From: Alphaproteobacteria bacterium
Lineage (GTDB): Bacteria; Pseudomonadota; Alphaproteobacteria; ATCC43930; CGMCC-115725
NCBI GenBank assembly: GCA_030041385.1
Contig: JASHNY010000029.1
Coordinates: 1 to 34,970 of the forward strand
Length of the DNA: 34,970 bases
Reading direction: 5' to 3'
The notes under the pieces are model-generated. The model did no database searches. It was not told where the DNA came from and saw only the letters and a program-made list of their open reading frames with translations. Positions 19,204-34,776 of the stretch are shown one piece after another. Within the stretch, counting starts at the first letter, position 1, and each line of letters opens with the position of its first letter. A program made the position numbers and the translations under genes.

Positions 19204-20346
19204 CTACCGGCCCCGAAACGCCGGCATCACGTCGCGCGCGAACCAGCGCAATTGCTCGATGAACTCGCCGGGCGGCAGGCCTTCGGCCCAGTGGATCATG
19301 AAGTCTTCGAGGCCGGGGTACTGCGCCTCGACCGATTTGATGCCGTCGATGACCTGCGCCGGCGTGCCGCAGAACCATGCTTTTTGCTGCACCCCGTCAC
19401 GCAGCGAGGGGATATGCGCGGGCGCGCCGGGCGTGCCCCAGGTGCGCCCCTGCTCGTCGGCATAGCGCACGAAGCCAAACGGCGCGAACCATTTGAAGCG
19501 CTCGTCATGCGCCGGTTCGAGGCGGCGGATCGCCGCTTCCTCGCTGCCGGCGAGATGGACCCCGGCGCCCCAGATCATGTCTTCGCCCAGCTGCTTCGGG
19601 CGACCGTGGCGGACGCAGGCGTCGCGATAGGCGCGCACCACGTCGTCGAGAATCTTGGCGCCGTTCAGCGTCACCATCGGCTTCATGCCGTATTGCGCCA
19701 TCATGTCGATCGTGCGGCCGCTGGCGATCGGCATGTAGATTTCGACCGGCAGATGTTTCGGGCGCGGCACGCAGGTGATTTCCTTCAGATCGTAGCCGCG
19801 ATACGGAACCGGCGGCGGCGCCTCGAAATACTTGCCCTTGTGGTGAAACGATTCCTCGTTGAAGCATTTGAACAGAAGCTGAACGCCTTCCTCGAAGATT
19901 TCGCGGTTGGCGGCAGCGTCGAGCAGCGGCCCGCCCAGGGTCTCGACCTCGCGGGTGTGATAGCCGCGCCCAACGCCCAAGACGACCCGTCCGTCGGTGA
20001 CGATGTCGGCCATCGCGTAGTCTTCCGCCAGGCGGATCGGGTGCCACATCGGCAGGATGTTGAAGCCGCAGCCGAATTTAAGCTGCTTCGTCTGCGTCGC
20101 CAGCCACAGCCCCCACTGGATCAGGTTGGGGATGCACTCGTAGCCTTCGTGCTGGAAATGGTGCTCGGCCGCCCACAGGCAGTAATAGCCGTTTTCGTCC
20201 ATGACCCGGGCAACCCGGCGCGAGGTCTCGAACACCTCGCTGAGCCGCTCGTTGGAATAGCGGCGGTCGTTGGCCGGGGTGCCGTCGAGCCCGACATTGT
20301 CGAGCTCGATCTGGCCGACATAGATCGCGTGGAACCGCTTGATCAT
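19204..20346 (-). CDS. LLM-class flavin-dependent monooxygenase (type A, paralogue 1)
   Basis: The 380-residue protein is a luciferase-like TIM barrel that uses FMNH2 and O2. Signature segments are 'YCLWAAEHHFQHEG' (residues about 55-68), 'KFGCGFNILPMWHPIRLAEDYAMAD' (about 90-114, in two parts) and 'RVVLGVGRGYHTREVE' with the flavin phosphate loop. The same segments recur in the gene at 25143 with few changes, so the two are clear paralogues. Family members oxidise alkanals, sulfonates, nitro compounds or heterocycles, and the substrate is not readable here. It follows the FAD-dependent oxidoreductase gene by 13 bp on the same strand, so they are one operon. A separate flavin reductase is needed; one is encoded at 30659. 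Confidence 0.9.
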   Translation of the reverse strand: MIKRFHAIYVGQIELDNVGLDGTPANDRRYSNERLSEVFETSRRVARVMDENGYYCLWAAEHHFQHEGYECIPNLIQWGLWLATQTKQLKFGCGFNILPMWHPIRLAEDYAMADIVTDGRVVLGVGRGYHTREVETLGGPLLDAAANREIFEEGVQLLFKCFNEESFHHKGKYFEAPPPVPYRGYDLKEITCVPRPKHLPVEIYMPIASGRTIDMMAQYGMKPMVTLNGAKILDDVVRAYRDACVRHGRPKQLGEDMIWGAGVHLAGSEEAAIRRLEPAHDERFKWFAPFGFVRYADEQGRTWGTPGAPAHIPSLRDGVQQKAWFCGTPAQVIDGIKSVEAQYPGLEDFMIHWAEGLPPGEFIEQLRWFARDVMPAFRGR

Positions 20347-20359
20347 CCCATTGCTCCTT

Positions 20360-21823
20360 CTATTCCCAGCGCGGTTCGGCCGCGGCGTTGCGTCCGGAGA
20401 TGCGGCCGAATGCCAGGCATTCGCCGATATTGCCGGTGCCCTGATAGAGATAGCTGTAGATCGACCCCAGTTCCCCGGCGCTGTAGAGCCGCCGGATCGG
20501 CGTGCCGTCGGGGCGCACGATCTGGCCTCTTTCGTTGCGGCGCGGCCCGCCCTGGGTGTTGAGCATCGAGGGCGACAGCTCGACCGCGTAGTATGGCGGC
20601 TCGGCGAGCGGCGCCAGCATCAGGCTGCGGCCGAACGCGTCGTCGCGCCCGTCGCCGCAAGCGCGGTTCCAGCGCGCAACGGTCTCCGCCAGCACGGCAG
20701 GGTCGAGCCCGACGAGTTCGGCAAGCGCGGCCGGGCTGTCGGCCCGCCTGATCCAGCCCTTGGCCAGTTCGGCGCTGTTGTCCGCGCTCCATTCGTAGCG
20801 CTCGACGATCTGCGTCCAGCCGTGGCTCGGGTGCATGTCGTAAAGCGGTCCGGCGCGAAACAGCGTGTCGTCGAAGATCATGAACATCGGGCACGGGGTC
20901 GCCAGCGGCAGCCACCGCCCATGAAACGGCACCTTGCCGTGCCGGGTCTTGTATTTCTCGTCGCAGAAGCGCCGCGCGTCGGGCCCGACCACGATCATGC
21001 CGCCCGGCATCTGCTTGCTGAAGTGCAAGGCCTGCATCGACAAGGTCGTGCGCACCTCCGGCACCTTGAGCGCCATCGACGGGCCGGCGTAATTGTTCAT
21101 GTGCCAAAGATCGGCGCCGACCGCCATCGCCATCGCGATCCCGTCGCCTTCGTTGTAGGGCGAACCGGAGGTGTAGCAATAGGCAATCCCGGGGAGATAA
21201 TTGCGGATCATCTCCTGGTTGTTCTCGAAGCCGCCGCAGGTCAGCACCACCGCCTTGCGCGCCTTGACGTAGACCGCCTCGCCGCCGCGCTCGGCACGGA
21301 TGCCGAGAATCTCCTTCGTCGTGTTGTCCTGAACGAGCTCCCGGCCCGGCGTCTCGTAGAGGATCGGGATCGGCCGCTGCTCGACCAGGCTTTCAAAGCG
21401 CTTCCAGGTGAAGGAATAGCCGTAGGTCGGCCCGTCATGGAATTTGTGGACGCAGCCGGCGCCGGGCAGGTCGGGAAACTCGATCCCGACCGGGGGGTGC
21501 TGATGCTCTTGCGGATCGCCGCCGACGCCCTTCAGCCAGTCGTTGTTGCGGCACATTTCCTCCGCCCACGCCGCCACCATCGCCGGCGGGACGGTGTAAG
21601 GACCGCACAGCGCGGTCAGGTAGGCGGCGGCCTCCACCGGCGATGCAGTGTTGAGGTAGCCCTGGCCGGCGACCCGCGTGTTGCCGCCATGCTCGCCCCT
21701 GGGCGCCTTTTCGAGAATGACGACGCGCGCGCCCAGATCGTGCGCGGTCACGGCCGCCGCCACTCCCGCCGCCCCGAACCCAACCACCGCGACATCCGTT
21801 TCGACATCCCATTTGTGCGGCAC
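20360..21823 (-). CDS. FAD-dependent oxidoreductase (fumarate reductase / 3-ketosteroid dehydrogenase-like flavoprotein)
   Basis: A 487-residue flavoprotein. The dinucleotide-binding loop is G15-F-G17-A-A-G20 followed by 'VVILEKAPRGEHGGNTRVAGQG' (in two parts), the typical Glu-Lys and GGNT sequence of the fumarate reductase/succinate dehydrogenase flavoprotein superfamily; 'VLTCGGFENN' marks the second flavin contact; 'GELGSIYSYLYQGTGNIGEC' near the C-terminus closes the FAD site. Relatives include ketosteroid dehydrogenases, tricarballylate dehydrogenase and urocanate reductase, which add or remove a C=C bond next to a carbonyl. No signal peptide or haem domain is present, so it is cytosolic. 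The start is GTG 21823, with AAGGAG 9 bases upstream; the longer open frame is an artefact. Heads an operon with the downstream LLM gene. Confidence 0.9.
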   Translation of the reverse strand: MPHKWDVETDVAVVGFGAAGVAAAVTAHDLGARVVILEKAPRGEHGGNTRVAGQGYLNTASPVEAAAYLTALCGPYTVPPAMVAAWAEEMCRNNDWLKGVGGDPQEHQHPPVGIEFPDLPGAGCVHKFHDGPTYGYSFTWKRFESLVEQRPIPILYETPGRELVQDNTTKEILGIRAERGGEAVYVKARKAVVLTCGGFENNQEMIRNYLPGIAYCYTSGSPYNEGDGIAMAMAVGADLWHMNNYAGPSMALKVPEVRTTLSMQALHFSKQMPGGMIVVGPDARRFCDEKYKTRHGKVPFHGRWLPLATPCPMFMIFDDTLFRAGPLYDMHPSHGWTQIVERYEWSADNSAELAKGWIRRADSPAALAELVGLDPAVLAETVARWNRACGDGRDDAFGRSLMLAPLAEPPYYAVELSPSMLNTQGGPRRNERGQIVRPDGTPIRRLYSAGELGSIYSYLYQGTGNIGECLAFGRISGRNAAAEPRWE

Positions 21824-21836
21824 TGACGCTTGCTCC

Positions 21837-21866
21837 TTGGTCTGTCCCCATCGGCTACCGTACACT
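21837..21866 (+). promoter_or_regulatory. Possible promoter of the alpha/beta hydrolase gene
   Basis: TTGGTC (21837-21842) and TACACT (21861-21866) are 18 bases apart and end 26 bases before the ATG at 21893. They lie within the 69-bp divergent gap between the FAD oxidoreductase and hydrolase genes, so a regulator here could control both. Prediction by consensus only. Confidence 0.3.
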
Positions 21867-21892
21867 GGCACCAGGCTTTCCCGGAGGAAACC

Positions 21893-22738
21893 ATGCCCGA
21901 TACGCTTGCAGCCGATGCCCGCCATGCGGTGACGATCGAGGATGTCGAATACCAGCGCCAGAACGGCCGCCCGATGCTGGCGCGGCTGTACCGGCCAGGC
22001 GGGACCGGCCCGTTCCCGGCGGCGTTGCAGGTGCATGGCGGCGCGTGGACCAGCAAGGACCGCACCGACAACGACTTCATCGCCAAGGCGCTGGCCGAAA
22101 GCGGCATCTTCGTCGCCTCGATCGATTTCCGCATGCCGCCGGACGGGGCGCATCCGGCCTCGCTGCAGGACATCAATCTCGGCATCCGCTGGCTGAAGGC
22201 GAGCGCGTGCGAGTTCAAGAGCCGGCCCGAATGGGTCGGCTCGTTCGGCACGTCGAGCGGCGGCCACCAGGTCCTGCTCGCGGCGATGCGGCCCGATCAC
22301 CCGCAATACGCGGCATTGCCCGGACCGGCGGGAATCGATGCACGCCAGGCCTGGGTGATTTCCGGGTGGGGCGTGCTCGACCCGCTGCTGCGCTACAACC
22401 TGGCGAAGCAGGCCGGCAACGCCGAGCTGGTCAAGAACCACGACGTTTTCTGGGGCAGCGAGGCGGCGATGGCCGACGCCGCCCCGCCCCTGATGCTGGA
22501 GCGGGGTGAGAAATGCGCCTTGCCGCCGGCGCTGGTGTTCGGCGGCGACAGCGACGAATGGGTGCCGGTCGAGTTGATGAAGAGCTTTGTCGCCAACTAC
22601 CGCAAGGCCGGCGGCGAGTGCGAATTGCAGCTTTATGAAGGCGCCAACCACGGCTTCATGACCGGCAAGCCGGATGCGCCCTATGCCGCGCGGGCGATCG
22701 AGCGGATGCGCGCGTTCATCCGCAACCACACGGCATAG
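21893..22738 (+). CDS. Alpha/beta hydrolase (esterase/lipase, HSL-like)
   Basis: The 281-residue enzyme has the oxyanion-hole motif H48-G-G, nucleophile elbow G119-T-S121-S-G, an acid in 'GGDSDEWVP' (D219 or D221) and the catalytic H253 in 'ANHGFM'. The HGG motif places it with hormone-sensitive-lipase-like carboxylesterases, which cleave short acyl esters or lactones. The ATG at 21893 follows CCGGAGGAAACC, an excellent ribosome-binding site. No signal peptide, so cytosolic. It diverges from the FAD oxidoreductase gene and could hydrolyse the ester or lactone made by a monooxygenase step in the cluster; this is inference from context. Confidence 0.9.
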   Translation: MPDTLAADARHAVTIEDVEYQRQNGRPMLARLYRPGGTGPFPAALQVHGGAWTSKDRTDNDFIAKALAESGIFVASIDFRMPPDGAHPASLQDINLGIRWLKASACEFKSRPEWVGSFGTSSGGHQVLLAAMRPDHPQYAALPGPAGIDARQAWVISGWGVLDPLLRYNLAKQAGNAELVKNHDVFWGSEAAMADAAPPLMLERGEKCALPPALVFGGDSDEWVPVELMKSFVANYRKAGGECELQLYEGANHGFMTGKPDAPYAARAIERMRAFIRNHTA

Positions 22739-22802
22739 GCGCCGCCCCGGTCATTCCGCGCCGGCATCGACGACATCAGAGAGGGCAATGGGCCGGGACT
22801 GG

Positions 22803-24158
22803 CTATCGGCCCGGTGCAGCGCTAGCCCAAACCGCCGCGTCGAACCGGCTTTGCGGCCAATCGAGGCCGTAATGCTCGCGCAGGGTCGTGCCTTCGTATT
22901 CGGTGCGGAACAGGCCGCGCCGCTGCAATATCGGGATGACCTCGCCGGCAAACGTTTCGAGCTGCTGCGGGAACAGCGGCGGCATCACGTTGAAGCCGTC
23001 GGCGGCGCCGTCATTGAACCAGTCTGCCATCAAATCGGCGATCTGCTCCGGCGTGCCGGCGATCACGTAATGGCCGCGCGCACCGGCGAGGTAGCCGAGC
23101 AATTGCCGCAATGTCGGCTGGTCGCGCCGCACCAGGTTCAGGATTACCTCGGTGCGGCTGCGCGCGGCCTGGACCGTGGCGGGGTCGGGGAAATCCTCGG
23201 GGCGCAGCGGGCGGTCGAGCGGCAGGTCGGAAAAATCGTGCCCGCCGAACCGGTTGGAGAGCCGCTTGCGGCCGACCTCGGCATCGGTCAATTCGTTGAC
23301 CTCGCGCGCCAGGCGCTGCGCCTCCGCCGCGGTCGCCGCGATCATCGGGCTGAGCCCCGGCAGGATCAATACGTGGCCCGGGTCTCGGCCCTCGGCCCGC
23401 GCCAGGCTTTTCAGGTCGGCATAGAATTCCTGCGCCGTCGCCTTTTCCATATGCGCCGTGAACACGGCGTCGGCGTGCCGCGCGGCAAAGCGGCGGCCGG
23501 TGTCTGACGATCCCGCCTGCACCAATACCGGCCGACCTTGCGGGCAGCGCGGCATGTTGAGCGGCCCGGCCACCCGGTAGAAATCGCCGCGGTGGTCGAT
23601 CGGCTGGATGCCGCCGGAGTCGGCGTAAAGCCCGCTCGCCCGGTCGTCGAGCACCGCATCCGCGGCCCAGCTGTCCCACAGCGCCTTGACCACCGCCATG
23701 AATTCCTCGCCGCGGGCATAGCGGTCGTCGTGGGTCACCTGGCCGGCGCCGCCGAAATTGCGCGCCGCCGTTGCCAGCCACGAGGTGACGATGTTCCAGG
23801 CGGCGCGGCCGTTGCTGATATGATCGATCGAGGCGAACTGCCGGGCCAGGTTGAACGGCTCGGTATAGGTGGTCGACGCGGTCGCGATCAGCCCGATATG
23901 GCGGGTCGATACCGCCAATGCCGCCAGCACCGTGATCGGTTCGAGCCAGGTGCGTGCCGCCTGCGCCACATCCTCGCCGAGCGCCAACTGGTCGGCGAGG
24001 AAGACCGAATCGAATTTTGCCGCTTCGGCCCGCTGCGCCAGATCCTGGTAGTAGCGAATATCAGTGAGCGCGTAGGGCGAGGTATCGGGGTGCCGCCAGG
24101 AGGCCTCGTGATGGCCGCGGCTGTGGAAAAACAGGTTCAGATGCAATTGCCGCTTCAT
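22803..24158 (-). CDS. LLM-class flavin monooxygenase, NtaA/SnaA/DszA type (copy 1)
   Basis: A 451-residue luciferase-like enzyme of the nitrilotriacetate monooxygenase (NtaA/SnaA/DszA/SoxA) branch. Diagnostic pieces are 'FHSRGHHEASWRHPD' near the N-terminus, 'FDSVFLADQLALG', 'IGLIATASTTYTEPFNLARQFASIDHISNGRAAWNIVTS' (read across residues 88-127), 'GRPVLVQAGSSDTGR', and the C-terminal 'PILQRRGLFRTEYEGTTLREHYGL'. These enzymes use FMNH2 from a separate reductase to break C-N or C-S bonds or hydroxylate heterocycles. The ATG at 24158 is preferred over one 18 bases upstream. The gene follows the SDR gene by 34 bp on the same strand, so both are likely expressed together. Confidence 0.92.
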   Translation of the reverse strand: MKRQLHLNLFFHSRGHHEASWRHPDTSPYALTDIRYYQDLAQRAEAAKFDSVFLADQLALGEDVAQAARTWLEPITVLAALAVSTRHIGLIATASTTYTEPFNLARQFASIDHISNGRAAWNIVTSWLATAARNFGGAGQVTHDDRYARGEEFMAVVKALWDSWAADAVLDDRASGLYADSGGIQPIDHRGDFYRVAGPLNMPRCPQGRPVLVQAGSSDTGRRFAARHADAVFTAHMEKATAQEFYADLKSLARAEGRDPGHVLILPGLSPMIAATAAEAQRLAREVNELTDAEVGRKRLSNRFGGHDFSDLPLDRPLRPEDFPDPATVQAARSRTEVILNLVRRDQPTLRQLLGYLAGARGHYVIAGTPEQIADLMADWFNDGAADGFNVMPPLFPQQLETFAGEVIPILQRRGLFRTEYEGTTLREHYGLDWPQSRFDAAVWASAAPGR

Positions 24159-24192
24159 GCCGCCCTCGCGAGGCATTCGCTGCCGGAATCGT

Positions 24193-24939
24193 TCACGAGA
24201 TCGTCACCCCGCTATCGACCGGCAGAACCTGGCCGGTGACCATGCGGGATTCGTCACTGGCAAGATAAAGCGCCATGCCGGCGATGTCTTCGGGCTCGAT
24301 CAGGCCGAGCAGGTGCGATTGGGCAAGCCGGGTCAATGCCGCGTTGCCGGCGACCAGCCGCCTGACCCGCTCGGTCATCGTCGCCGACGGCGCGATGGCG
24401 TTGACCCGCACCTTCTGCGGCGCATAGGCAACGGCAAGCGAGCGGGTGATCGCGGCGATCCCGCCTTTGGCCGCGGTGTAGCAATCGCGGCCGGGCACGC
24501 CCATCAAGGCGACGTTGGAGCTCATGTTGATCACCGAGCCGCCGCCGGCCTTGACCAACTCGGGGATGCCGAAGCGGCAGCCGAGAAACGTGCCGTAAAG
24601 GTCGAGCTTGATCGCCCGCCAGAATTCGTCGAGCGGCGCGTTGACCGCGGTGTCGTCGGCCGCGGTCGAGCCGCCGGCGTTGTTGTGCAATACGTCGAGC
24701 CGGCCGAACTGGGCGGCCGTGGTGCGGATCGCCCGCTGCAGGCTGTCGGGGTCGGTCACATCGGTCGCGATCGCGATCGCCGCGTGGCCGGCGAGATGCG
24801 CGGTTTCCTCGCCGGCCCGCGCGTCGATGTCGGCGATTGCCACCTTGGCGCCTTCACGCGCGAACAGGATCGCGGTGGCGCGGCCGATCCCGGTGCCGGC
24901 GCCGGTGATGAAAGCGACTTTGCCTGCCAGCCGTGCCAT
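24193..24939 (-). CDS. Short-chain dehydrogenase/reductase (SDR)
   Basis: The 248-residue classical SDR has the cofactor loop 'TGAGTGIGRA' (residues 12-21), the acidic 'DID' at the end of strand 2 (37-39) that favours NAD(H), 'DVTD' (60-63), 'NNAGG' (86-90) and the catalytic S140/S141, Y154, K158 set in 'CYTAAKGG'. The C-terminal 'DESRMVTGQVLPVDSGVTIS' is standard for the FabG-like group. It oxidises or reduces a secondary alcohol/ketone, and in this context could act on a product of a neighbouring monooxygenase. The ATG at 24939 follows AAGGAGAGG. It is the first gene of a two-gene minus-strand unit and diverges from the LLM gene at 25143. Confidence 0.92.
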   Translation of the reverse strand: MARLAGKVAFITGAGTGIGRATAILFAREGAKVAIADIDARAGEETAHLAGHAAIAIATDVTDPDSLQRAIRTTAAQFGRLDVLHNNAGGSTAADDTAVNAPLDEFWRAIKLDLYGTFLGCRFGIPELVKAGGGSVINMSSNVALMGVPGRDCYTAAKGGIAAITRSLAVAYAPQKVRVNAIAPSATMTERVRRLVAGNAALTRLAQSHLLGLIEPEDIAGMALYLASDESRMVTGQVLPVDSGVTIS

Positions 24940-25142
24940 CGATCCTCTCCTTCCCGTGTGTCGATGGGACATCGTAGCGGCCCCGGCAGTCGAGGAGAAA
25001 CCGCCCGGATGGATGCGTTTCTCAACCACGCCCTCGGTTGAGCGGCAAAATTTCGGGGGTCATGGCGACCCTGCGATATTTCGGCGAGACAGAGCACGCC
25101 GCGGGCGAGGATACTGCCGGCCGCAATCCCGGGAGACGCCCG

Positions 25143-26327
25143 ATGATCACGAAATTCGACAGCTCGTATTACGGCACCGCCGACATGGAAAATCTCGGCT
25201 ATCGCGGCACGCCGATCAACGAGCGCCGCTATTCGCAGAAGGAGCTGGCGAAGGCGCTGCACAAGGTGGTGGCCTATGCCCAGTGCATGGACGAGCGCGG
25301 CTACAACACGTTCTGGATGGCCGAGCACCACTTTCAGCCGGAAGGGACCGAGCTGATCCCCAACCTGTTGATGATGGCGGCGCATCTGTGCGGGGTGACG
25401 AAGAACCTCAAGATCGGCTGCGGCTTCAACATCGTGCCGATGTGGCACCCGCTGCGCCTCGCGGAAGATTACGCGATGGCCGACATATTGACCGGCGGGC
25501 GGGTGATCTTCGGCGTCGGGCGCGGCTATCACACCCGCGAGGTCGAAACCTTCGGCTCGCCGCTGATCGACCAGGCGGCCAACCGCGAGATCTTCGAGGA
25601 AGGCGTCGAGGTGCTGTTCAAGGCCTTCGCGGGCAAGCCGTTCAGCCACAAGGGAAAATACTACACGATCCCGCCCGAGGTGCCGTATCGCGGCTACACG
25701 CTGAAGGAGATCACCTTGGTGCCGGGGCCGGAGCATCTGCCGGTCGAATGCTGGCAGCCGATCCAGAGCGGCTCCGAACGCGCCTTCGAGTTCATGGCCA
25801 AATACGGCATCAGCGGGGTGATCGGCGGCGGCTCGGCCGAAGGCGGCGCGGTCGAGCGGCACATGATCGGGTTCCAGCAGGCCTATGCAAGGCGCGGCAT
25901 CAAGCTCGAACTCGGCGAGCGGCTGGCGCTCGGCTACCAGTTCCACATCGCGTCGAGCCGCGAGCGGGCGATAAAAGAGGCCGCGCCGCATTACGAAGAG
26001 AACATGAAGATGTTCGGCGAATTGCGTCTGGTGCGGGCGCTCAGCGACGAGCAGATCGCGGCGATGCGCGACCCCAAACTGGCCGGCACGGTCAAACTGC
26101 CGACCATCGAGGATGCGGTAAAGGCGGGCGGCTTTCTTGCCGGCAGGCCCGAGGACATCATCGAGCATTTGAAGGCGGTCGAGAGCCGCTATCCCGGCCT
26201 CGACCGGGTCATCTGCGCGACCCCGCTCGGCACCCCTCTCGACGTGCAGCTCGAAGACCTCGACCGCTTCGCCAAGGAGGTGATGCCGGCGTTCCGCGGC
26301 ACCGCCCGGGCCGCAGCGGCGCAGTAA
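25143..26327 (+). CDS. LLM-class flavin-dependent monooxygenase (type A, paralogue 2)
   Basis: A 394-residue luciferase-like barrel closely related to the product of 19204. Shared segments include 'FWMAEHHFQPEG', 'LKIGCGFNIVPMWHPLRLAED', 'GRVIFGVGRGYHTREVETFG' and 'ANREIFEEGVEVLFKAF', nearly identical to paralogue 1. The last third diverges: it has an extra 'DPKLAGTVKLPTIEDAVKAGG' segment where paralogue 1 has a shorter loop, which suggests a different substrate pocket. The ATG at 25143 follows GGGAGACGCC. It diverges from the SDR/LLM pair across a 203-bp region without genes that probably holds both promoters, and converges with the next LLM gene across a palindromic repeat. Confidence 0.9.
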   Translation: MITKFDSSYYGTADMENLGYRGTPINERRYSQKELAKALHKVVAYAQCMDERGYNTFWMAEHHFQPEGTELIPNLLMMAAHLCGVTKNLKIGCGFNIVPMWHPLRLAEDYAMADILTGGRVIFGVGRGYHTREVETFGSPLIDQAANREIFEEGVEVLFKAFAGKPFSHKGKYYTIPPEVPYRGYTLKEITLVPGPEHLPVECWQPIQSGSERAFEFMAKYGISGVIGGGSAEGGAVERHMIGFQQAYARRGIKLELGERLALGYQFHIASSRERAIKEAAPHYEENMKMFGELRLVRALSDEQIAAMRDPKLAGTVKLPTIEDAVKAGGFLAGRPEDIIEHLKAVESRYPGLDRVICATPLGTPLDVQLEDLDRFAKEVMPAFRGTARAAAAQ

Positions 26328-26359
26328 TCGATCTCGGCGGAGTTGAGTCCGGCCCCATC

Positions 26360-26448
26360 GGGATTGCTTCCTCCGGGATCAAGCCTGGGGTCGCAATGAC
26401 CGTCGAAAGAGATCGTCATTGCGAGGAGCTTAGCGACAAAGCAATCCC
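26360..26448. repeat. Palindromic dispersed repeat between convergent genes
   Basis: The outer arms GGGATTGCTT (26360) and AGCAATCCC (26440-26448) and the inner arms TCGCAATGAC (26391-26400) and GTCATTGCGA (26415-26424) pair to form a long hairpin. The sequence 'GTCATTGCGAGGAGC...AGCAATCCC' is a well-known dispersed repeat type in alphaproteobacterial and other genomes. It lies between the ends of two LLM genes and could act as a terminator-like structure. Confidence 0.75.
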
Positions 26449-26481
26449 GCTCCGCTTGGCGCAGATGGACCGGAATTCGAG

Positions 26482-27807
26482 CTAAGGGAAAAACCGGTTC
26501 GCCGGACGCGGCAGACCGAGGTTTTCGCGCAATGTCGTGCCCTCGTATTCACGACGGAAGAGGCCGCGGCGCTGCAGTTCGGGGACGACGCGGTCGACGA
26601 ACTCGTCGAGCCCGCCCGGGACCCACGGGAACATGATGTTGAACCCGTCGCAGGCGTCGCCGCAGAGCCATTCCTCCATCTGGTCGGCAATTGTCCTCGG
26701 CGTGCCGACCATGGCGAGCCCGCCGTAGGAGCCGGCGATCTGCGCGAGCTGGCGCACCGTCAGATTGTCGCGCCGGGCGCGCGCGATGACCCGCTCACGG
26801 CCGCTTTTCGAGGCGTTGCTTTCGGGAATGTCGGGGAGCGGCGCGTCGAGCTCGAAGCCCGAGGCGTCGTGCCCCAATGCGATCGACAACGAGGCGATGC
26901 CGCTGTCCGGGTGCACGCGGCTGTCGAGCAAAGCCCGCTTCTGCCTTGCCTCTTCGACCGTGTCGCCGACCACGACAAGGCAGCCGGGCAGGATTTTGAG
27001 GTGGTCGGGATCGCGCCCGGCCGCCTTGGCGCGGGTCTTGATGTCGGCATAAAGGCGCTGCGCGTCGGGGAAATTGCCGCCGCTGGCGAACACCATTTCC
27101 GCGGTCTCGGCGGCAAGCTGGCGGCCGGCATCCGACGCGCCGGCCTGGACGATAACCGGCCAGCCCTGGATCGGCCGGGCGATGTTCAAGGGCCCGCGCA
27201 CCGACAGGAACTCGCCCTTGTGGTCGAGCACGTGCATCCGGTCGGGGTCGAAATAGATGCCTTCCTCGACATCGCGGACAAACGCATCCTCGGCCCAGCT
27301 GTCCCACAGCCCTGTCACGACATCGAAAAACTCGCGGGCGCGGCGATAGCGCTCGCCGTGCTCCATATGCTCGGTGAGGCCGAAATTGAGCGCCGCGTCG
27401 GGGTTCGAGGTGGTGACGAGGTTCCACCCGGCGCGCCCGCCCGAGATATGGTCGAGCGAGGCGAAGCGCCGGGCGATCACATAGGGCGGCTCGAACGTCG
27501 TCGAGGCGGTGGCAATCAGGCCGATATGCTTCGTCACCATCGCCAAAGCCGGCAGCAGGGTCAGCGGGTCGAACGAGGTCACCGTGGCGCTGCGCTTCAA
27601 TGCCGCCATCGGCATGTTCAACACCGCCAGATGGTCGGCCATGAACCACGCGTCGAAGCGCCCCGCCTCGAGCTTTTGCGCAAAGCGGATCAGGTGCTTG
27701 AGGTTGAAATTCGCGTCAGGCCAGGCGCCGGGATAGCGCCACCATGCGGTATGGATTCCGACCGGGCGCATGAAGGCGCCGAGACGCAGCTGTCGCGATG
27801 CGGCCAT
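26482..27807 (-). CDS. LLM-class flavin monooxygenase, NtaA/SnaA/DszA type (copy 2)
   Basis: A 441-residue member of the NtaA/DszA branch. It begins 'LRLGAFMRPVGIHTAWWRYP', has 'FDAWFMADHLAVLN', 'GLIATASTTFEPPYVIARRFASLDHISGGRAGWNLVTTS' (read across residues 96-134), 'GWPVIVQAGASDAGR' and ends 'PELQRRGLFRREYEGTTLRENLGL', each the counterpart of a segment in the other two NtaA-type proteins of the window. It is about as different from copy 1 as such enzymes usually are when substrates differ. It stands alone on the minus strand between two copies of the dispersed repeat and diverges from the TrpF-like gene. It needs external FMNH2. Confidence 0.92.
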   Translation of the reverse strand: MAASRQLRLGAFMRPVGIHTAWWRYPGAWPDANFNLKHLIRFAQKLEAGRFDAWFMADHLAVLNMPMAALKRSATVTSFDPLTLLPALAMVTKHIGLIATASTTFEPPYVIARRFASLDHISGGRAGWNLVTTSNPDAALNFGLTEHMEHGERYRRAREFFDVVTGLWDSWAEDAFVRDVEEGIYFDPDRMHVLDHKGEFLSVRGPLNIARPIQGWPVIVQAGASDAGRQLAAETAEMVFASGGNFPDAQRLYADIKTRAKAAGRDPDHLKILPGCLVVVGDTVEEARQKRALLDSRVHPDSGIASLSIALGHDASGFELDAPLPDIPESNASKSGRERVIARARRDNLTVRQLAQIAGSYGGLAMVGTPRTIADQMEEWLCGDACDGFNIMFPWVPGGLDEFVDRVVPELQRRGLFRREYEGTTLRENLGLPRPANRFFP

Positions 27808-27841
27808 GCCGACGCTCCGTTAAACGTGTTCAGGCGATGCT

Positions 27842-27869
27842 GTCATTGCGCGCGGGGCGAAGCAATCCC
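27842..27869. repeat. Half copy of the GTCATTGCG...AGCAATCCC repeat
   Basis: GTCATTGCGCGCGGGGCGAA followed by GCAATCCC is one arm-pair of the same repeat family seen at 26360, here without the second half. It lies in the divergent gap between the LLM gene at 26482 and the TrpF-like gene. Confidence 0.7.
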
Positions 27870-27944
27870 GCGCCGGGCCCCCCACCTGACCCACTTCGAA
27901 AGCCGGCTTGCGCGACAGGCCACGGCCGACTTAAACCGGATGCC

Positions 27945-28631
27945 ATGCTGACGCAAATTTATGAAGTCGGCACACCGGACGAGGCGCGATCGATCTCGCT
28001 GATCGGTGTCGATCACATCGGCATTCTCGTCGGCGAGGGTCGGTTCCCGCGCGAGCAGTCAGTGATCGCTGCGCAACGGATAACGGCGGCGATTTGCCGG
28101 CCGGCAAAATTCTCGGCCCTGTTCCTCGGCTCCGACCGTGCCTTTATCGAACGGTCGGTTCAGCAGCTCAAGCCGGCCATCCTGCATCTCGGAGCGGCGC
28201 CGGACCTGCTCTCGCCGCAAGACCTGGCGGCGCTCAGGTCGAGGGTGCCGCCGCACATTTTGATCATGCGGAGCGTGCCCGTCATCGGGGACGAAAGCAT
28301 CGCGATCGCACGGAGCTACGACGGCATCGCAGATTTTCTGCTGCTTGACAGCCACCGCGTCGCCGACAGGCAAATCGGTGCGCTCGGCATCACCCACGAC
28401 TGGAGCATCAGCCGCCGCATCGTCGAGCAGGTCCGTATTCCGGTGATCCTCGCCGGTGGGCTTGGCCCGGACAACGTGGCGGAGGCGCTCCGCATAGTTC
28501 GTCCGGCCGGCGTCGACTCGAAAACCCGGACCGATCGCGGCGGCTCGCACGCCAAAGACCTCGACCGCGTGCGGCGGTTCCACGAAGCGGCAAAGGCCGC
28601 GGGTCTCTCCGACCCGAACCGGCAGGCTTAA
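27945..28631 (+). CDS. TrpF-like (beta/alpha)8-barrel protein without the catalytic Cys
   Basis: A 228-residue barrel resembling phosphoribosylanthranilate isomerase. The C-terminal phosphate-binding end is well kept: 'IPVILAGGLGPDNVAEAL' (residues 165-182), 'PAGVDSKTRTD' (187-197) and 'HAKDLDRVRRF'. D135 in 'FLLLDSH' matches the general acid of TrpF. At strand 1, where TrpF has K-I-C-G with the general base Cys, this protein has Q4-I-Y6-E7, so ordinary isomerase activity is doubtful. No other trp gene is nearby and the neighbours are catabolic, so a different sugar-phosphate or amine substrate is likely. It leads a four-gene + strand run (TrpF-like, GST, LLM, FMN reductase). The longer open frame upstream contains the repeat and is not used. 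Confidence 0.8.
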   Translation: MLTQIYEVGTPDEARSISLIGVDHIGILVGEGRFPREQSVIAAQRITAAICRPAKFSALFLGSDRAFIERSVQQLKPAILHLGAAPDLLSPQDLAALRSRVPPHILIMRSVPVIGDESIAIARSYDGIADFLLLDSHRVADRQIGALGITHDWSISRRIVEQVRIPVILAGGLGPDNVAEALRIVRPAGVDSKTRTDRGGSHAKDLDRVRRFHEAAKAAGLSDPNRQA

Positions 28632-28680
28632 CGAGGCGCGCGGCGCACTCTACAATCGCCGAGCGCGGGAGCGAGGGGTG

Positions 28681-29310
28681 ATGTACAGACTGTTCGCCCG
28701 CCCCGGCTGGGGCTCGACCCTGGTGGAGGCGCAGCTCGCCTGGTACGGGCTGCCCTTTACGATCGAGGACGTGGACGATCTGTTCGCCTCGGCCGCCGCG
28801 CGCGAGCGGTTGGCCGCGGTGAACCCGGTGGCGCAGGTGCCGACGCTGGTCTTGCCCGATGGCTCGGTGATGACCGAAAGCGCCGCGATCACGTTGCACC
28901 TGGCCGACATCACCGGCAGCCGGACGCTGGTGCCGGCGCCGGGCGAGCCCACCCGGCCGCGCTTTCTGCGCTGGCTGGTGTTTCTGGTGGCGAACGTCTA
29001 CCCGACCTTCACCTATGCCGACGACCCGGCGCGGTTCGCGCCGGCGGCGTGTGCCGCCCAGTTCGGCGAAAACGTCGCGCGCTATCGCGAGGTGCTGTGG
29101 GGCATCGTCGAGCGCGAGGCCGGCGACGAATGGTTTCTCGGTGCGCGCTTTTCCGCGCTCGACCTCTATCTGGCGGTAATGACGCGGTGGCGGCCGCGCC
29201 GTGCGTGGTTTGCCGAACAGTGCCCGCGGCTCCACGACATCGCCGTGCGGGCCGAGGCCCGGCCGGAACTGGCCGCGGTGTGGCAGCGCAATTTCCCCGC
29301 AAATTCGTGA
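28681..29310 (+). CDS. Glutathione S-transferase
   Basis: The 209-residue protein has an N-terminal thioredoxin-like domain with 'NPVAQVPTLVLPDG' (the cis-Pro loop that holds glutathione) and 'MTESAAITLHLAD' (the glutathione gamma-Glu contact), then an all-helical C-terminal domain with 'FSALDLYLAVMTRW', the conserved N-capping box region. Such enzymes conjugate or de-conjugate glutathione, or isomerise and dehalogenate. The GTG at 28678 and ATG at 28681 are both possible starts; ATG is used here. It lies 49 bp behind the TrpF-like gene and 17 bp before an LLM gene, so it is probably part of the same catabolic operon. Glutathione reductase is encoded at 14016. Confidence 0.9.
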   Translation: MYRLFARPGWGSTLVEAQLAWYGLPFTIEDVDDLFASAAARERLAAVNPVAQVPTLVLPDGSVMTESAAITLHLADITGSRTLVPAPGEPTRPRFLRWLVFLVANVYPTFTYADDPARFAPAACAAQFGENVARYREVLWGIVEREAGDEWFLGARFSALDLYLAVMTRWRPRRAWFAEQCPRLHDIAVRAEARPELAAVWQRNFPANS

Positions 29311-29327
29311 CAGGAGCGCGACCCGAC

Positions 29328-30656
29328 ATGAGCACACCCGCGCGGCAGATGCATCTCGGGGTTTTCGTCCTCGGCAGCGGCAACCATTCGGCCGGCTGGC
29401 GCTATGAAGGCGCCGCCACCAGCCACATGCAGCTGCCGGTGATGCAGGAGATCGCCCGCATCGCCGAGCGCGGCAAGTTCGACCTGCTGTTCATCTCCGA
29501 TTCGATGGTCATGGACCCGGGGGACCACCCCTCGTTCCTGTGCCGCTTCGAGCCGACGACGCTGATCTCGGCACTCTCGGCCTGCACCACCCATATCGGG
29601 CTCGGCGCCACGGTGTCGACGAGCTTTTCAGAGCCGTTCAACGTCGCCCGCCTGTTCGGCTCGATCGATCATTTGAGCGGCGGGCGCGCGGCGTGGAACG
29701 TCGTCACCACCTCGAACGTCAAGGTGGCGCAGAATTTCGGCCGCGACGAGCACCTGGACCACGATTTGCGCTATCAGCGCGCCGAGGAATTCGTCGATGT
29801 CGTGCGCGGCTTGTGGGATTGCTGGGACGACGGTGCGATCGTCGCCGACAAGGCGACCGGCCAGTACATCGACGCCGCGAAGGTGCGCCCGCTCGATCAC
29901 CAGGGCCGGTTCTTTCGGGTGAAGGGCCCGGTCAACATGGCGCGCTGCCCGCAAGGCCACCCGGTGATCATCCAGGCCGGCGGCTCGCCATCGGGGCTGG
30001 AACTCGCGGCGCGCACCGCCGATGTCGTCTTTTCCGTCGTGCAGGAGCTCGATTCGGCCAAGGCGGCCTATGCCGACCTCAAGGGCCGCATGGCCAAATA
30101 CGGCCGCGCGCCGGGCGAGATCGCAGTGTTGCCGGGGGTCATGCCGATCATCGGCAGCAGCGAGGTTGAGGCGCGCGACAAGCTGGCGAAACTGCAAAGC
30201 TGGATCACCCCGACCAACGCGCTGACCCTGGTCGCGAGCCGCATCGGCTACGACGTGTCGGGGCACCCGCTCGACGGGCCGGTGCCGCCGCCGCCCGCGA
30301 GCCAGGGCGGGCAGACCTTCCACAAGGTGCTGTACGAGATGGCGCGGCGCGAAAAGATGACCCTGCGCGACCTCTACAATCTGACGGCGGCGGCGCGCGG
30401 GCACTGGGTGATCTGCGGCACGCCGCAAACGATCGCCGACACGCTCCAAGAATGGTTCACCGAGGGCGCGGCCGACGGATTCAACATACTGCCCGCCTAT
30501 TTCCCCGGCGCCTTCGCCGAATTCGTCGATCTCGTTGTGCCGGAACTGCAGCGCCGCGGCCTCTACCGGCGCGACTACCAGGGAACGACGTTGCGCGACC
30601 ATTTCGGCCTCGCCCGCGTGCCGGCGCCGGCGCGGCAGCGTGAGGCGGGAGAATAG
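29328..30656 (+). CDS. LLM-class flavin monooxygenase, NtaA/SnaA/DszA type (copy 3)
   Basis: The 442-residue protein has the branch features 'MHLGVFVLGSGNHSAGWRYEG', 'FDLLFISDSMVMDPGDHP', 'GLGATVSTSFSEPFNVARLF', 'IDHLSGGRAAWNVVTTSN', 'GHPVIIQAGGSPSG' and the end 'PELQRRGLYRRDYQGTTLRDHFGL'. It is the best candidate for the main oxygenase of a two-component system, since the gene for an NADPH:FMN reductase starts 2 bp after its stop. ATG 29328 has AGGAG 12 bases upstream, slightly far. The family includes enzymes for nitrilotriacetate, EDTA, dibenzothiophene sulfone and related compounds; the actual substrate is open. Confidence 0.93.
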   Translation: MSTPARQMHLGVFVLGSGNHSAGWRYEGAATSHMQLPVMQEIARIAERGKFDLLFISDSMVMDPGDHPSFLCRFEPTTLISALSACTTHIGLGATVSTSFSEPFNVARLFGSIDHLSGGRAAWNVVTTSNVKVAQNFGRDEHLDHDLRYQRAEEFVDVVRGLWDCWDDGAIVADKATGQYIDAAKVRPLDHQGRFFRVKGPVNMARCPQGHPVIIQAGGSPSGLELAARTADVVFSVVQELDSAKAAYADLKGRMAKYGRAPGEIAVLPGVMPIIGSSEVEARDKLAKLQSWITPTNALTLVASRIGYDVSGHPLDGPVPPPPASQGGQTFHKVLYEMARREKMTLRDLYNLTAAARGHWVICGTPQTIADTLQEWFTEGAADGFNILPAYFPGAFAEFVDLVVPELQRRGLYRRDYQGTTLRDHFGLARVPAPARQREAGE

Positions 30657-30658
30657 CG

Positions 30659-31246
30659 ATGCCCGACGTCCCGCGCCTGCTGATGCTGGTCGGCGCTGCC
30701 ACGCCGCCCGGTCGGCTCGCGAATGCGGTCGCCTATGCGGCGGATGCGGCGCGCGCCGCCGGCCCCGGCATCGAGGTGGACATCCTCAATCTCGCCGACA
30801 CGCCGGTCGAAATCTGCGACGGCCGCGCGCTCGACGCCTACGCCGCGCCGACGCGACAGGCGGTCGCGCGCATCGCCGGCGCCGCCGCGGTGTTGATCGC
30901 CGCGCCGGTGTACCGGGCGAGCTATCCCGGCGTCTTGAAAAACCTGCTCGACACCACCCCGGTCGAGGCCTTGCAGAACAAGCCGGTCGGCATCCTGGCG
31001 ATGGGCGGCTCGCCGCATCATTATCTCGCGGTCGATAGCCAGCTGCGGGCGGTACTGGCCTGGTTCGGCGCTCTGGTCGCGCCGACCGCGGTCTACATCA
31101 CCGGCGCCGATTTTCGCGACGGGAAGCTGGCGGCCGAACGCGCCCGCCGGGACCTCGCCGCCCTGGTCGAGACCTTGATCGTGCTATCGCGCCGGCTCGG
31201 CCCGGCCGCGCTCGGCCCCAAACCGCTTGCCGCCCAGTTCACCTGA
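30659..31246 (+). CDS. NADPH-dependent FMN reductase (SsuE/MsuE-like)
   Basis: A 195-residue flavodoxin-like reductase that supplies reduced FMN. The N-terminal 'LLMLVGAATPPGRLANAV' stands at the FMN-phosphate loop (normally GSxRxxS, here partly altered), 'LIAAPVYRASYPGVLKNLLD' (residues about 80-99) is the hallmark P-x-Y-x-x-S-x-P-G-x-L-K-N motif, and 'KPVGILAMGGSPHH' the second FMN contact. SsuE and MsuE partner LLM sulfonate monooxygenases. It lies 2 bp downstream of an NtaA-type LLM gene and closes the + strand run; it may also feed the other four LLM enzymes of the cluster. Confidence 0.92.
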   Translation: MPDVPRLLMLVGAATPPGRLANAVAYAADAARAAGPGIEVDILNLADTPVEICDGRALDAYAAPTRQAVARIAGAAAVLIAAPVYRASYPGVLKNLLDTTPVEALQNKPVGILAMGGSPHHYLAVDSQLRAVLAWFGALVAPTAVYITGADFRDGKLAAERARRDLAALVETLIVLSRRLGPAALGPKPLAAQFT

Positions 31247-31579
31247 GCGCCATCGCCTCGTTCCCCGCCCGCCTTCGTAAACAGCCTCGCACCGCGAATC
31301 TGGCGGCGCTCCGGGAGTTGCGCGGTGATGGCGGCGGCCGCTGCCCGGCATAAAAAGACCAGCGTTCCTCGGCATTAAAGAACAGGCGCGGCCGGGCATA
31401 AAAAAACGCGTTGGCGTTTCGGTTACAATTCTTGCCGTCGCGGCCGCGCCGGGGGGTTGGGAAACGGCCGGATCACGGTCATGCCGGCAAGGGCCGGTTC
31501 ACCCATCCGCAAATTCAAGGCCGCAAGCAGCCGCTTTCGCCGGCGGGCGCCAGCCGGGCGATTTCGAGGAGGTTGAAGA
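31247..31579 (+). promoter_or_regulatory. Gene-free region ahead of the sulfatase-like gene, with three phased GGCATWAAA repeats
   Basis: No convincing gene lies here. GGCATAAAAAG (31347), GGCATTAAAG (31371) and GGCATAAAAA (31395) begin at exactly 24-bp intervals, while the sequence between them differs, so the spacing and the motif are conserved and the spacer is not. That pattern suggests direct-repeat binding sites for a regulator of the downstream gene. A TACAAT at 31424-31429 could be a -10 element, but no good -35 was found. The strong GAGGAGG before 31580 is the ribosome-binding site. Confidence 0.45.
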
Positions 31580-33247
31580 GTGAGCGCGGACCACGAAGAT
31601 GCCATGCCGGACCGCCGCCGCATTCTGCTGGGCGGCACGACGCTTGCCGCCGCGTCGCTGCTCGGCTCCGTGGCTTCGATCCAGGCTGCCGAGGCGCAGC
31701 CCGCTGCCGCCCCGGACGACCCCGTCGGGCGGCGACCGAACATCCTGGTCATCTTCGGCGACGATATCGGCCAGTCCGACATCAGCGCCTATACGTTCGG
31801 CCTGATGGGCTATCGCACGCCGCACATCGACCGCATTGCCCGCGAGGGCATGATGTTCACCGATTATTATGCGGAGCAGAGCGATGTCGCCGGCCGCTCG
31901 ACCTTCATCACCGGCCAGGCGACGCTGCGCACCGGGCTGTCGCGGGTCGGCATTCCCGGTGCCGCGATCGGTCTCAATGCCCAGGACATCACGATCGCCG
32001 AGGCGCTGAAGCCCCTCGGCTACGCCGCCGGCCAATTCGGCACAAACCGCCTCGGCGACCGCAACGAATACCTGCCGACCGTGCATGGGTTCGACGAGTT
32101 TTTCGGCGACCTTTACGACCTCAACGCCGAAGAAGCGCCGGAGCAGCCCGATTATCCGAAAGACCCTGCCTTCCGCGCCCGTTTCGGCCCGCGCGGCGTG
32201 CTCAAATGCATCGCCACCGACAGCGACGACCCGACCGTCGATCCGCGCTTCGGCAGGGTCGGCAAACAGACCATCGAGGACACCGGGCCGCTGAGCCACA
32301 GGCGCATGGAAACGATCGACGACGAGACCACCGACGCCGCGATCGATTTCATCGAGCGCCAGAACAAGGCAGGGCGGCCGTTTTTCGTGTGGATGAACAC
32401 GACGCGCATGCACCTTTACACGCATGTTCGCGCGTCGCTGCGCGGGCAGAGCGGCATGCCCGACAACGAATACGCCGACGGCATGATCGAGCACGACGGC
32501 GATGTCGGGCGGCTGTTGAAAGCGCTCGACGATCTGAACATCGTGAACGACACGATCGTGGTCTACACGACCGATAGCGGGCCGCACCTGAATGCCTGGC
32601 CCGACGCGGGAACGACCCCGTTCCGCGGCGAAGCCGGGAGCGGCTGGGAAGGCGCCTATCGGGTGCCGGCAATGGTGCGCTGGCCCGGCCATATCAAGCC
32701 CGGCACCGTGTCGAACGAGATCTTTTCGGGGTGCGACTGGTTTCCGACCCTGTTGGCTGCCGCGGGCGACCCCGAAATCAAGGACCGGCTGGAGAACGGT
32801 TGGGACCTCGGCGACCGCACCTGCAAGGTGCATCTCGACGGCTACAATCAGCTGCCCCACCTGACCGGGCAGCAGGAAAAGTCGGACCGCAAGGGCTTCA
32901 TCTATTTCGATGCGGACGGTCAGGTCATTGCCGTGCGTTTCGGCCCGTGGAAGGCGGTGTTCGCCGAAGAGAAGCCCCTCGCCACCCCGGCTGCCCAGGG
33001 CGAACCGCCGAGGTTCCGGCGCTCGCCGCGAATTTGCAACCTGCGCATGGACCCCTACGAGCGCGCCGAAACCGCCTCCGGCGCCTATTACGACTGGGCG
33101 CTGCGCCACGCCTTCGTATTGCTCGAGGTGCAGGGGATCGTGGCCGCCTTTGCCGCCACGCTGGAGGAATTTCCGCCGGCGCAGCGGCCGCAGAGCCACG
33201 GCCTCGACCAGGTCATGGCGATATTGCAGCAGCCGACGAGCGACTGA
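31580..33247 (+). CDS. Tat-exported sulfatase-family protein lacking the formylglycine site (probable pseudoenzyme)
   Basis: The 555-residue protein is full length and aligns by eye from end to end with type I arylsulfatases. It has a twin-arginine signal (R12-R13-R14 then 'ILLGGTTLAAASLLGS'), so it is predicted to be periplasmic. D61-D62 of the calcium site are present ('IFGDDIGQ'). The activation motif, normally C-x-A/P-x-R in 'AEQSCTAGR', reads 'AEQSDVAGR': the Cys that becomes formylglycine is Asp102. In addition 'FGKNHLGD' is 'FGTNRLGD' (T155, R157), 'NTTHMH' is 'NTTRMH' (R276), 'TDNGPH' is 'TDSGPH' (S333), and the Lys of 'GEKN' is Ala352. The surrounding scaffold is well kept and no frameshift is present. 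GTG start with GAGGAGG upstream. Sulfate-ester hydrolysis by the normal mechanism is not expected. Confidence 0.9.
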   Translation: MSADHEDAMPDRRRILLGGTTLAAASLLGSVASIQAAEAQPAAAPDDPVGRRPNILVIFGDDIGQSDISAYTFGLMGYRTPHIDRIAREGMMFTDYYAEQSDVAGRSTFITGQATLRTGLSRVGIPGAAIGLNAQDITIAEALKPLGYAAGQFGTNRLGDRNEYLPTVHGFDEFFGDLYDLNAEEAPEQPDYPKDPAFRARFGPRGVLKCIATDSDDPTVDPRFGRVGKQTIEDTGPLSHRRMETIDDETTDAAIDFIERQNKAGRPFFVWMNTTRMHLYTHVRASLRGQSGMPDNEYADGMIEHDGDVGRLLKALDDLNIVNDTIVVYTTDSGPHLNAWPDAGTTPFRGEAGSGWEGAYRVPAMVRWPGHIKPGTVSNEIFSGCDWFPTLLAAAGDPEIKDRLENGWDLGDRTCKVHLDGYNQLPHLTGQQEKSDRKGFIYFDADGQVIAVRFGPWKAVFAEEKPLATPAAQGEPPRFRRSPRICNLRMDPYERAETASGAYYDWALRHAFVLLEVQGIVAAFAATLEEFPPAQRPQSHGLDQVMAILQQPTSD

Positions 33248-33294: not shown

Positions 33295-34617
33295 TCAGCC
33301 GGCGATATTTTCGGCGTTGCGCAGAAAGCGCCGGTTCGGCGCGCTGCGCGGGCGCCGGCCCAGGCGTTCGTGCGCCAAGGCCAGGGCGACATCGCGCTGT
33401 CCGGCGCGGGTCGCGGCTTCGGCGAGCGTCCAGGCGATAACGTCGCGCTGCGCGTGGCTGCCGCCGATCTGCCACAGATCGACGCGAATCCGCAGCAACA
33501 GCTCGACCGCCTCGGCATAGGCGCCGCGATGGAACGCCGCCAGCGCCTCGACTGCCGGAATCCCGACCGTGCGGTAGAGTCCGGCCGCCTCGGCTTCGCT
33601 CGCCGCGGTGTTGCGCATCGCCGCCAGCCGCCGCTCGACCCGCGACTCCTCTCCCGAGCGCAACTCGGCCATCGCCGCGTGAATGTCGGTGAAGACGAGG
33701 CATTTCCCGTCGGCATGGCCGTCCCACAGTTCCGCCAGCTCGGCCCAGCGTCCGCCGACGTCGCAGCCGAGCGTGTCGAGCCGCCACAACAGCGCCGAGG
33801 CGTTGGTCAGGCTGTTGCCGAGCCGGCGCTGCGTGGCGCGGATCGGACCGTCGTAAAGCGCCAGCGCCGCCTGGTACTGCCCCAGTTCGAGGTGGAACAG
33901 CGCCTTGTGCCACCAGATGTGGACCTCGTTGGTGTGGCCGGGACCCGACCATTTCTGTTCTCGCGCCGCCATCCAGCCCAGCCCGTCTTCGGGCCGGCCG
34001 GTCATTTCCATCACATGCGCGACGGTGTGGTGCGGCCAGAAACTGGTCGGTTCAAGCTCGGCAGCCCGGCGCGATTCATCTTCGGCGCGGCCGTAATCGC
34101 CGGCTTCCTCCGATCCGAAAGCGTGAAAGGCCAGCATCGTGGCATACCCGGGCTGGTCGGCCGACCAGCACGGCAAGGCCCGCGCCGAGCGGTCGCGCAC
34201 CCAGTGGAAGCGCCCGAGAAACCCGTCCGCCAATGCCGCGGCCTGGTGCGCGACGAGATCGAACGGATAATGCATCAGGTGCCGGTCCAACACCGCGACG
34301 GCGGCGGCCCGAGCCCCCTCCACCTGGTGCGACAGGGCGCCGAGATGGGCCTGTTCGCGCTCGTTGAGCGCCAGCTTCCGCACCATGTCGAGCAGCGCGC
34401 GGGCCTGGACCAGGAGGGCGGGATCGTTGGCCATCGTCAGCAGCCACGCCTTGCCCAGATGCGCCATCGCGAATTCCGGCGCGGCCTCGCGCGCGGCATC
34501 GAACAGGCCGACGGCATCGCCGTGAACCAGGTTGAAGGCACGCACGGCCTCGTCGTAGGCGGCGACGGCGGCGGCGGTTGCACCGGAAAGCGGATGTCCC
34601 TGGGCGTCCTGAAGCAT
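33295..34617 (-). CDS. TPR protein of the TTC38-like family
   Basis: A 440-residue all-helical protein that resembles eukaryotic TTC38 and its bacterial relatives. Landmarks are 'QDAQGHPLSGATAAAVAAYDEA' near the N-terminus (in two parts), 'LNEREQAHLGAL', 'TSFWPHHTVAHVMEMTGRPEDGL' around the middle, 'IWWHKALFHLELGQYQAALALYD' and 'GRWAELAELW'. The H-T-V-A-H and W-W-H-x-A-L sequences are characteristic. Its function is unknown; TPR arrays usually bind peptides. No signal peptide. The ATG at 34617 is preferred over 34629 because GGAG lies 6 bases before it. It converges with the sulfatase-like gene with only 47 bp between their stops, and follows a LysR-type gene on the same strand. Confidence 0.82.
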   Translation of the reverse strand: MLQDAQGHPLSGATAAAVAAYDEAVRAFNLVHGDAVGLFDAAREAAPEFAMAHLGKAWLLTMANDPALLVQARALLDMVRKLALNEREQAHLGALSHQVEGARAAAVAVLDRHLMHYPFDLVAHQAAALADGFLGRFHWVRDRSARALPCWSADQPGYATMLAFHAFGSEEAGDYGRAEDESRRAAELEPTSFWPHHTVAHVMEMTGRPEDGLGWMAAREQKWSGPGHTNEVHIWWHKALFHLELGQYQAALALYDGPIRATQRRLGNSLTNASALLWRLDTLGCDVGGRWAELAELWDGHADGKCLVFTDIHAAMAELRSGEESRVERRLAAMRNTAASEAEAAGLYRTVGIPAVEALAAFHRGAYAEAVELLLRIRVDLWQIGGSHAQRDVIAWTLAEAATRAGQRDVALALAHERLGRRPRSAPNRRFLRNAENIAG

Positions 34618-34776
34618 CCTCGGCTCCATCGCTGACAAGGGCGGCCCGGCATCGCGCCGCACGGCTCGGCGGGCGGTGCGGCGGCTCGCCGCCGGCGCAG
34701 CTTACCATCGGATGCGAGGATTGGCTCGCCCGCGCACGTCCTGGCGCAGCCGGCACATCGGCGGCGGCCGCGCCTG

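Follow-up and report, generated by a model that had tools for sequence, protein, structure and literature searches.

The gene at positions 31580–33247 (+ strand) of the window probably encodes an exported sulfatase-fold pseudoenzyme that derives from an ordinary formylglycine (FGly) arylsulfatase. Judging from its residues, the protein is very probably no sulfatase, and it looks to be still maintained. The window is the whole stretch of DNA that was analysed, bases 1–34970 of a contig (C122 in our numbering) from a 4.39 Mb draft assembly of 264 contigs (completeness 98.5%, contamination 2.6%). The gene is one intact, full-length open frame of 555 codons with a GTG start and without an internal stop; as the original prediction had it, there is no frameshift. 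A pseudoenzyme, in the definition given by PMC10211241, is a homologue of an enzyme family without the conserved catalytic motifs, and the window protein is such a homologue. The features of the gene are given below, with residue counts from the 180 distinct full-length homologues that we surveyed.

31566–31572, + strand: Shine-Dalgarno-like GAGGAGG, 7 nt upstream of the GTG start, read from the sequence
31580–33247, + strand: sulfatase-fold ORF, 555 aa (PF00884, E 3.6e-40; PDB sulfatases by sequence and fold)
31604–31693 (end approximate), + strand: putative N-terminal export signal with a twin-arginine look (PDRRRILLGGTTLAAASLLG...), from the translation; we take the motif to be a twin-arginine one
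31760–31765, + strand: Asp61-Asp62, metal-ligand pair (ARSA D29, D30; roles from PMC4014121 Table 2), kept; Asp in 180/180
31883–31885, + strand: Asp102 (GAT) at the formylglycine Cys (ARSA C69), within AEQSDVAGR; 179 Cys and 1 Ser in 180, TGC in the sisters
31886–31888, + strand: Val103 replacing the family Thr beside the nucleophile; Thr in 180/180
31895–31897, + strand: Arg106 (ARSA R73), kept; 180/180
32042–32044, + strand: Thr155 (ACA) replacing Lys (ARSA K123); Lys in 180/180
32048–32050, + strand: Arg157 (CGC) replacing His (ARSA H125); His in 180/180
32117–32119, + strand: Asp180 replacing the family His, aligned to ARSA residue 150; His in 180/180
32405–32407, + strand: Arg276, family-typical and no catalytic replacement; R 138, H 41, A 1 among 180
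32411–32413, + strand: His278 (CAC; sulfate-binding, ARSA H229), kept; 180/180
32573–32578, + strand: Asp332 kept and Ser333 (AGC at 32576) replacing Asn (ARSA D281, N282); Asp and Asn in 180/180
32633–32635, + strand: Ala352 (GCC) replacing Lys (ARSA K302); Lys in 180/180

Fold and active-site residues

The sulfatase domain and the S1 fold are both present: PF00884 is matched, the best 50 of 613 Foldseek matches are all sulfatases, and the nearest solved structures by sequence and by fold are PsFucS1 (7aj0), followed by human arylsulfatase A (ARSA). An AlphaFold model from a 34-row alignment reached a pLDDT of 79.9 and a pTM of 0.85, against 80.9 and 0.86 for the canonical sister L013 as a control, and as far as this model tells the fold is kept. 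We considered whether low confidence in the loop at residues 350–354 reflects a disordered pocket and rejected the idea, since the same loop is low in the canonical control, and thus no claim about the pocket is drawn from the model there. Low confidence at residues 181–184 is found in the window protein alone, and at the equivalent of 336–342 in the control alone. The N-terminal signals of two sisters, L013 and L008, are similar to that of the window protein; the canonical sisters read RRNVLL or RRNILL where it has its putative export signal.

For ARSA, Table 2 of PMC4014121 gives D29, D30, D281 and N282 as metal residues, FGly69, then R73, K123 and H125 as FGly-binding residues and H229 and K302 as sulfate-binding residues, and the same ten residues appear in Table 3 of PMC7404199. 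Our alignment with ARSA maps them onto window residues 61, 62, 332, 333, 102, 106, 155, 157, 278 and 352. Five of these positions are kept, namely the three metal Asp (D61, D62 and D332), the Arg (R106) and the sulfate-binding His (H278), and the window protein shares these, along with the Pfam Sulfatase domain and the fold, with FGly (S1) sulfatases such as PsFucS1 and ARSA. Unlike in those enzymes, the other five are replaced (C102D, K155T, H157R, N333S and K352A): the FGly Cys/Ser is absent, the metal site of Asp, Asp, Asp and Asn has Ser333 for its Asn, and among the residues binding FGly (Arg, Lys, His) and sulfate (His, Lys), R106 and H278 stand beside the replacements Thr155, Arg157 and Ala352. 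The original prediction had named these five replacements, and the alignment bears it out at each (C69, K123, H125, N282 and K302 of ARSA), but its statement that the whole catalytic set is replaced goes too far, with half of the ten residues kept. Its reading of Arg276 as a lost catalytic His was a misalignment, as Arg is the usual residue there and the true His is His278. It also overlooked H180D and T103V.

In the formylglycine motif, given as C/S-x-P/A-x-R in PMC10154612, Asp102 stands in place of the Cys or Ser. Of 4058 sequences, section 7 of PMC5066984 counts, as printed, 3202 with Cys and 857 with Ser. Formylglycine arises from either of these residues (PMC5066984), and the known S1 mechanism is unavailable to a protein with neither at position 102. 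We infer that the window protein would form no formylglycine and hydrolyse no sulfate esters. Among the titles and abstracts on inactive or pseudo-sulfatases that a limited search of the open-licence PMC literature turned up, none describes Asp in the FGly place of a bacterial sulfatase. The host itself has probably not lost sulfatase maturation, given that its genome has two FGE-family matches and a canonical sulfatase paralogue on another contig (C34, 56% identity).

Homologues and phylogeny

Our survey took in 214 loci from the genome collection, other genomes and one viral contig, which yielded 186 full-length homologues with blastp scores of 400 bits or more; 180 of these are distinct. 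None of the 180 carries C102D, T103V, K155T, H157R, H180D, N333S or K352A, and positions 103, 155, 157, 180, 333 and 352 do not vary among them at all. The only Ser-type member is a locus in a Burkholderia record (L076:7851-9671). Nine partial frames, excluded from these counts, are canonical wherever visible, as are 12 additional matches outside the counts, one of which shows only the last three positions. Reading the residues at the fetched loci, we saw no wider clade with Asp102 in the host's own genome, family, order and class sample, in the relatives of three homologue-bearing genomes, or in the best 80 of 589 candidate loci and the one viral-contig locus. The homologues were picked by similarity to the query, with the genome collection contributing those best 80 of 589 candidate loci, and such a set could fail to include a rare second case. 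A plasmid search covered 454 records, with a top identity of 62.9% among the matches listed. Within the genomes searched, the window protein is a singleton.

The nearest genes among the matches listed, at ~70–71% identity over nearly the full length, come from a Xanthobacteraceae MAG and a Beijerinckiaceae MAG, both of the Hyphomicrobiales, and from one further genome (L165), but all three are canonical. The two Hyphomicrobiales genes each carry two labels in our data (L127, which is L013, and L128, which is L008). The query is sister to these two, with support of 100/96, in a tree with 56 of 132 homologues that leaves L165 outside. These nearest genes suggest descent from an ordinary FGly arylsulfatase. 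On this single lineage the nucleophile and the Lys, Lys and His contacting FGly or sulfate were replaced, and almost every other invariant position was left as it was. One further candidate for a query-specific change, N82H, was rejected, as L008 likewise has His there.

The lineage has also changed elsewhere. The terminal branch of the query, flagged as long by the tree program, measures 0.44 compared with ~0.2 in the sisters, the polarised changes number 68 against 30 and 29 in the two sisters, and 22 query residues occur in none of the 132 homologues, among them the radical changes W473Q, L482S and F486C. The query is thus accelerated outside the near-invariant columns. Such a long branch, with its further radical and lineage-specific changes, would also be expected of a recently dead gene, that is, an arylsulfatase gone out of use in this lineage and now drifting without a role. 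Its being a singleton points the same way, with every other copy in its own family (39 genomes, the host and 38 others) at no more than 58% identity. We regard a dead gene as unlikely, on the grounds of what has been conserved.

Conservation and selection on the lineage

Drift in a gene without a role would not be expected to hit catalytic columns while sparing structural ones. Among the 93 columns with at least 98% conservation across the 180 homologues, the query keeps 86 and alters 7, and five of these seven lie within the published ten active-site residues (hypergeometric P 9e-5), so that 5 of the 10 are altered inside that set compared with 2 of the 83 columns outside it. Adding position 180, which presumably belongs to the active site as well, gives an 11-residue set with six altered (P 4e-6); restricted to the strictly invariant columns, the test on the ten residues is weaker (P 0.002). 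When each of 132 homologues was left out in turn, the mean number of near-invariant violations was 0.47 per member with a maximum of 4, and a single active-site violation was found in total, the Cys to Ser change of the Burkholderia locus.

Codon models of six taxa gave a query-branch omega of 0.089, 0.071 and 0.084 in three runs, the third without the seven odd codons, over a background of ~0.05. Omega = 1 was rejected on the query branch in each (2dlnL 47, 53 and 45), with an upper bound of about 0.12–0.14; these estimates are read with synonymous sites near saturation, at ~3–4.5 neutral changes per codon on that branch. The rise over background is slight: the LRT was 4.0 in an earlier run (omega 0.091), and in the second of the three runs an omega of 0.05 was not rejected on the query branch (2dlnL 1.5). 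Omega is thus raised in two of the three runs, as relaxed constraint would give. The value of 0.07–0.09 spans the whole branch and averages the time before and after the catalytic loss, with 0 of the 180 distinct homologues sharing that loss and no second genome with the changes to separate the two periods. The branch as a whole is under purifying selection, and its mean omega allows just a short fully neutral period.

The gene shows neither a broken frame nor a neutral substitution pattern, either of which would mark a pseudogene; its frame runs without a stop or frameshift behind a Shine-Dalgarno-like site. Taken with the near-invariant columns that are kept, the concentration of changes on catalytic positions and the branch omega, the gene looks unlike simple decay. 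The original prediction of a catalytic loss on a scaffold kept under selection is in line with both the conserved columns and the selection on the branch, and the neutral dN/dS that it had named as a sign of decay was not what we found.

Possible roles of the protein and its neighbourhood

If the gene is maintained as a pseudoenzyme, the protein would be retained for a function other than that of a sulfatase, in which, once exported, it most likely binds a ligand or a partner. A divalent cation may still be bound by the three metal Asp and by Asp102, which occupies the site once taken by FGly. With the scaffold preserved and the chemistry lost, such a binding or partner function appears the most economical reading. 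The original prediction had offered sulfated or other anionic ligands, and our analysis speaks against them: binding of a sulfated ligand is disfavoured because both Lys that contact FGly or sulfate are lost (K155T and K352A) and the family His180 has become Asp. The pocket is less cationic than the family's, with Arg106, Arg157 and His278 remaining. The original prediction had also proposed a partner for an active sulfatase, a role that the protein might have; the genome search placed no other sulfatase match inside the window.

Could the pocket instead have been rebuilt for another reaction, by way of the metal site, Asp102 and His278? We consider a new enzyme quite unlikely. The changes do cluster in the active site, several of them introduce functional residues (C to D, H to D and H to R), and nothing has changed at the three metal Asp, at Arg106 or at His278. 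Active enzymes can tolerate substitutions at such positions: phosphonate monoester hydrolase BcPMH, a related enzyme, has Tyr/Thr for the FGly-binding Lys/His pair and His for the metal Asn (PMC4014121 Table 2). However, BcPMH, unlike the window protein, retains FGly and the equivalent of the sulfate-binding Lys in that table, and Asp at the nucleophile position occurs in none of the homologues that we examined. With the nucleophile and both Lys gone, loss is simpler than gain. More specifically, an alkaline-phosphatase-superfamily protein with Asp in the nucleophile place and a four-Asp metal site (61, 62, 102 and 332), serving new non-sulfatase chemistry or cation-dependent binding, seems to us a long shot.

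That the protein is still a sulfatase through an unrecognised nucleophile is very hard to credit: it has retained the fold, the metal Asp, Arg106 and His278, but it offers no Cys or Ser for formylglycine, and both Lys contacting FGly or sulfate are absent. An artefact of sequencing or assembly is just as remote, for although the gene was seen once, in a draft genome of 264 contigs, the seven changed codons differ by 14 nucleotides, all in frame, from the nearest of the three sisters at each codon, which excludes a sequencing slip as the cause, and the codon-position GC pattern matches the neighbour genes (GC3 0.856 compared with 0.851–0.887 in three of them). The original prediction had itself raised a lone mutant or sequencing error should all homologues keep Cys or Ser at position 102; all 180 do keep one or the other, so the gene does stand alone, and it is the explanation by error that falls.

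The pseudoenzyme reading can be compared with other departures from the S1 active site. YejM/PbgA/LapC likewise lacks the crucial Cys/Ser in its periplasmic, sulfatase-like domain and was earlier judged to be no enzyme, but PMC7576196 describes it as a protein of the inner membrane that has an active-site Thr, and reports for it a phosphatase activity that depends on Mg. Against the YejM/PbgA/LapC model, whose cut-off is 825 bits, the window protein reaches 19. Section 7 of PMC5066984 notes nine S1 sequences from Planctomycetes and Lentisphaerae that lack the FGly-stabilising Arg and “may be inactive”. These nine lose the Arg, whereas the window protein retains it and loses the nucleophile and other residues.

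Upstream, the region 19204–31246 has the look of an island for the degradation of organosulfur compounds or xenobiotics. It holds five luciferase-like FMN monooxygenase genes (19204–20346, 22803–24176, 25038–26327, 26482–27807 and 29325–30656), three of which score above the NtaA/DmoA cut-off, and an MsuE/SsuE-like FMN reductase gene (30659–31246), under those family cut-offs, which ends 333 bases before the sulfatase-fold gene. An SDR gene and a GST-like gene also lie upstream. Within the monooxygenase cluster, 27798–28631 (+) is phosphoribosylanthranilate-isomerase-like, over the Pfam cut-off and at 84.5 bits against an NCBIfam cut-off of 216. Elsewhere in the window are a long ORF convergent with the sulfatase-fold gene that has neither a Pfam nor an NCBIfam match (33295–34662, −), a long ORF without a Pfam match (15899–17101, +) and a small Fic/DOC-family ORF of 131 aa (13358–13753, −). 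The two sister sulfatases each have a HAD-like gene on their 3' side (L013:4083-5114 and L008:3259-4317, 47% identical to each other), possibly a conserved pair. The window genes include no match to the HAD-like gene, and a 62% relative on another host contig has its frame flagged with one TGA. Comparing the window ORFs with the flanks of the homologue loci, many of them short, we found no common gene order; beyond the sulfatase, the comparison gave matches in frames that overlap that gene or lie antisense to it, and a weak one of the SDR at 33%. No functional link between the sulfatase-fold gene and its neighbours can be drawn.

Sulfatases are annotated by their domain match, and on that footing this gene would be named an arylsulfatase although its product lacks the defining catalytic residue. 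Should the protein prove stable and able to bind something, it would offer a clean natural case of the passage from enzyme to pseudoenzyme, with canonical sisters at 70% identity for comparison.
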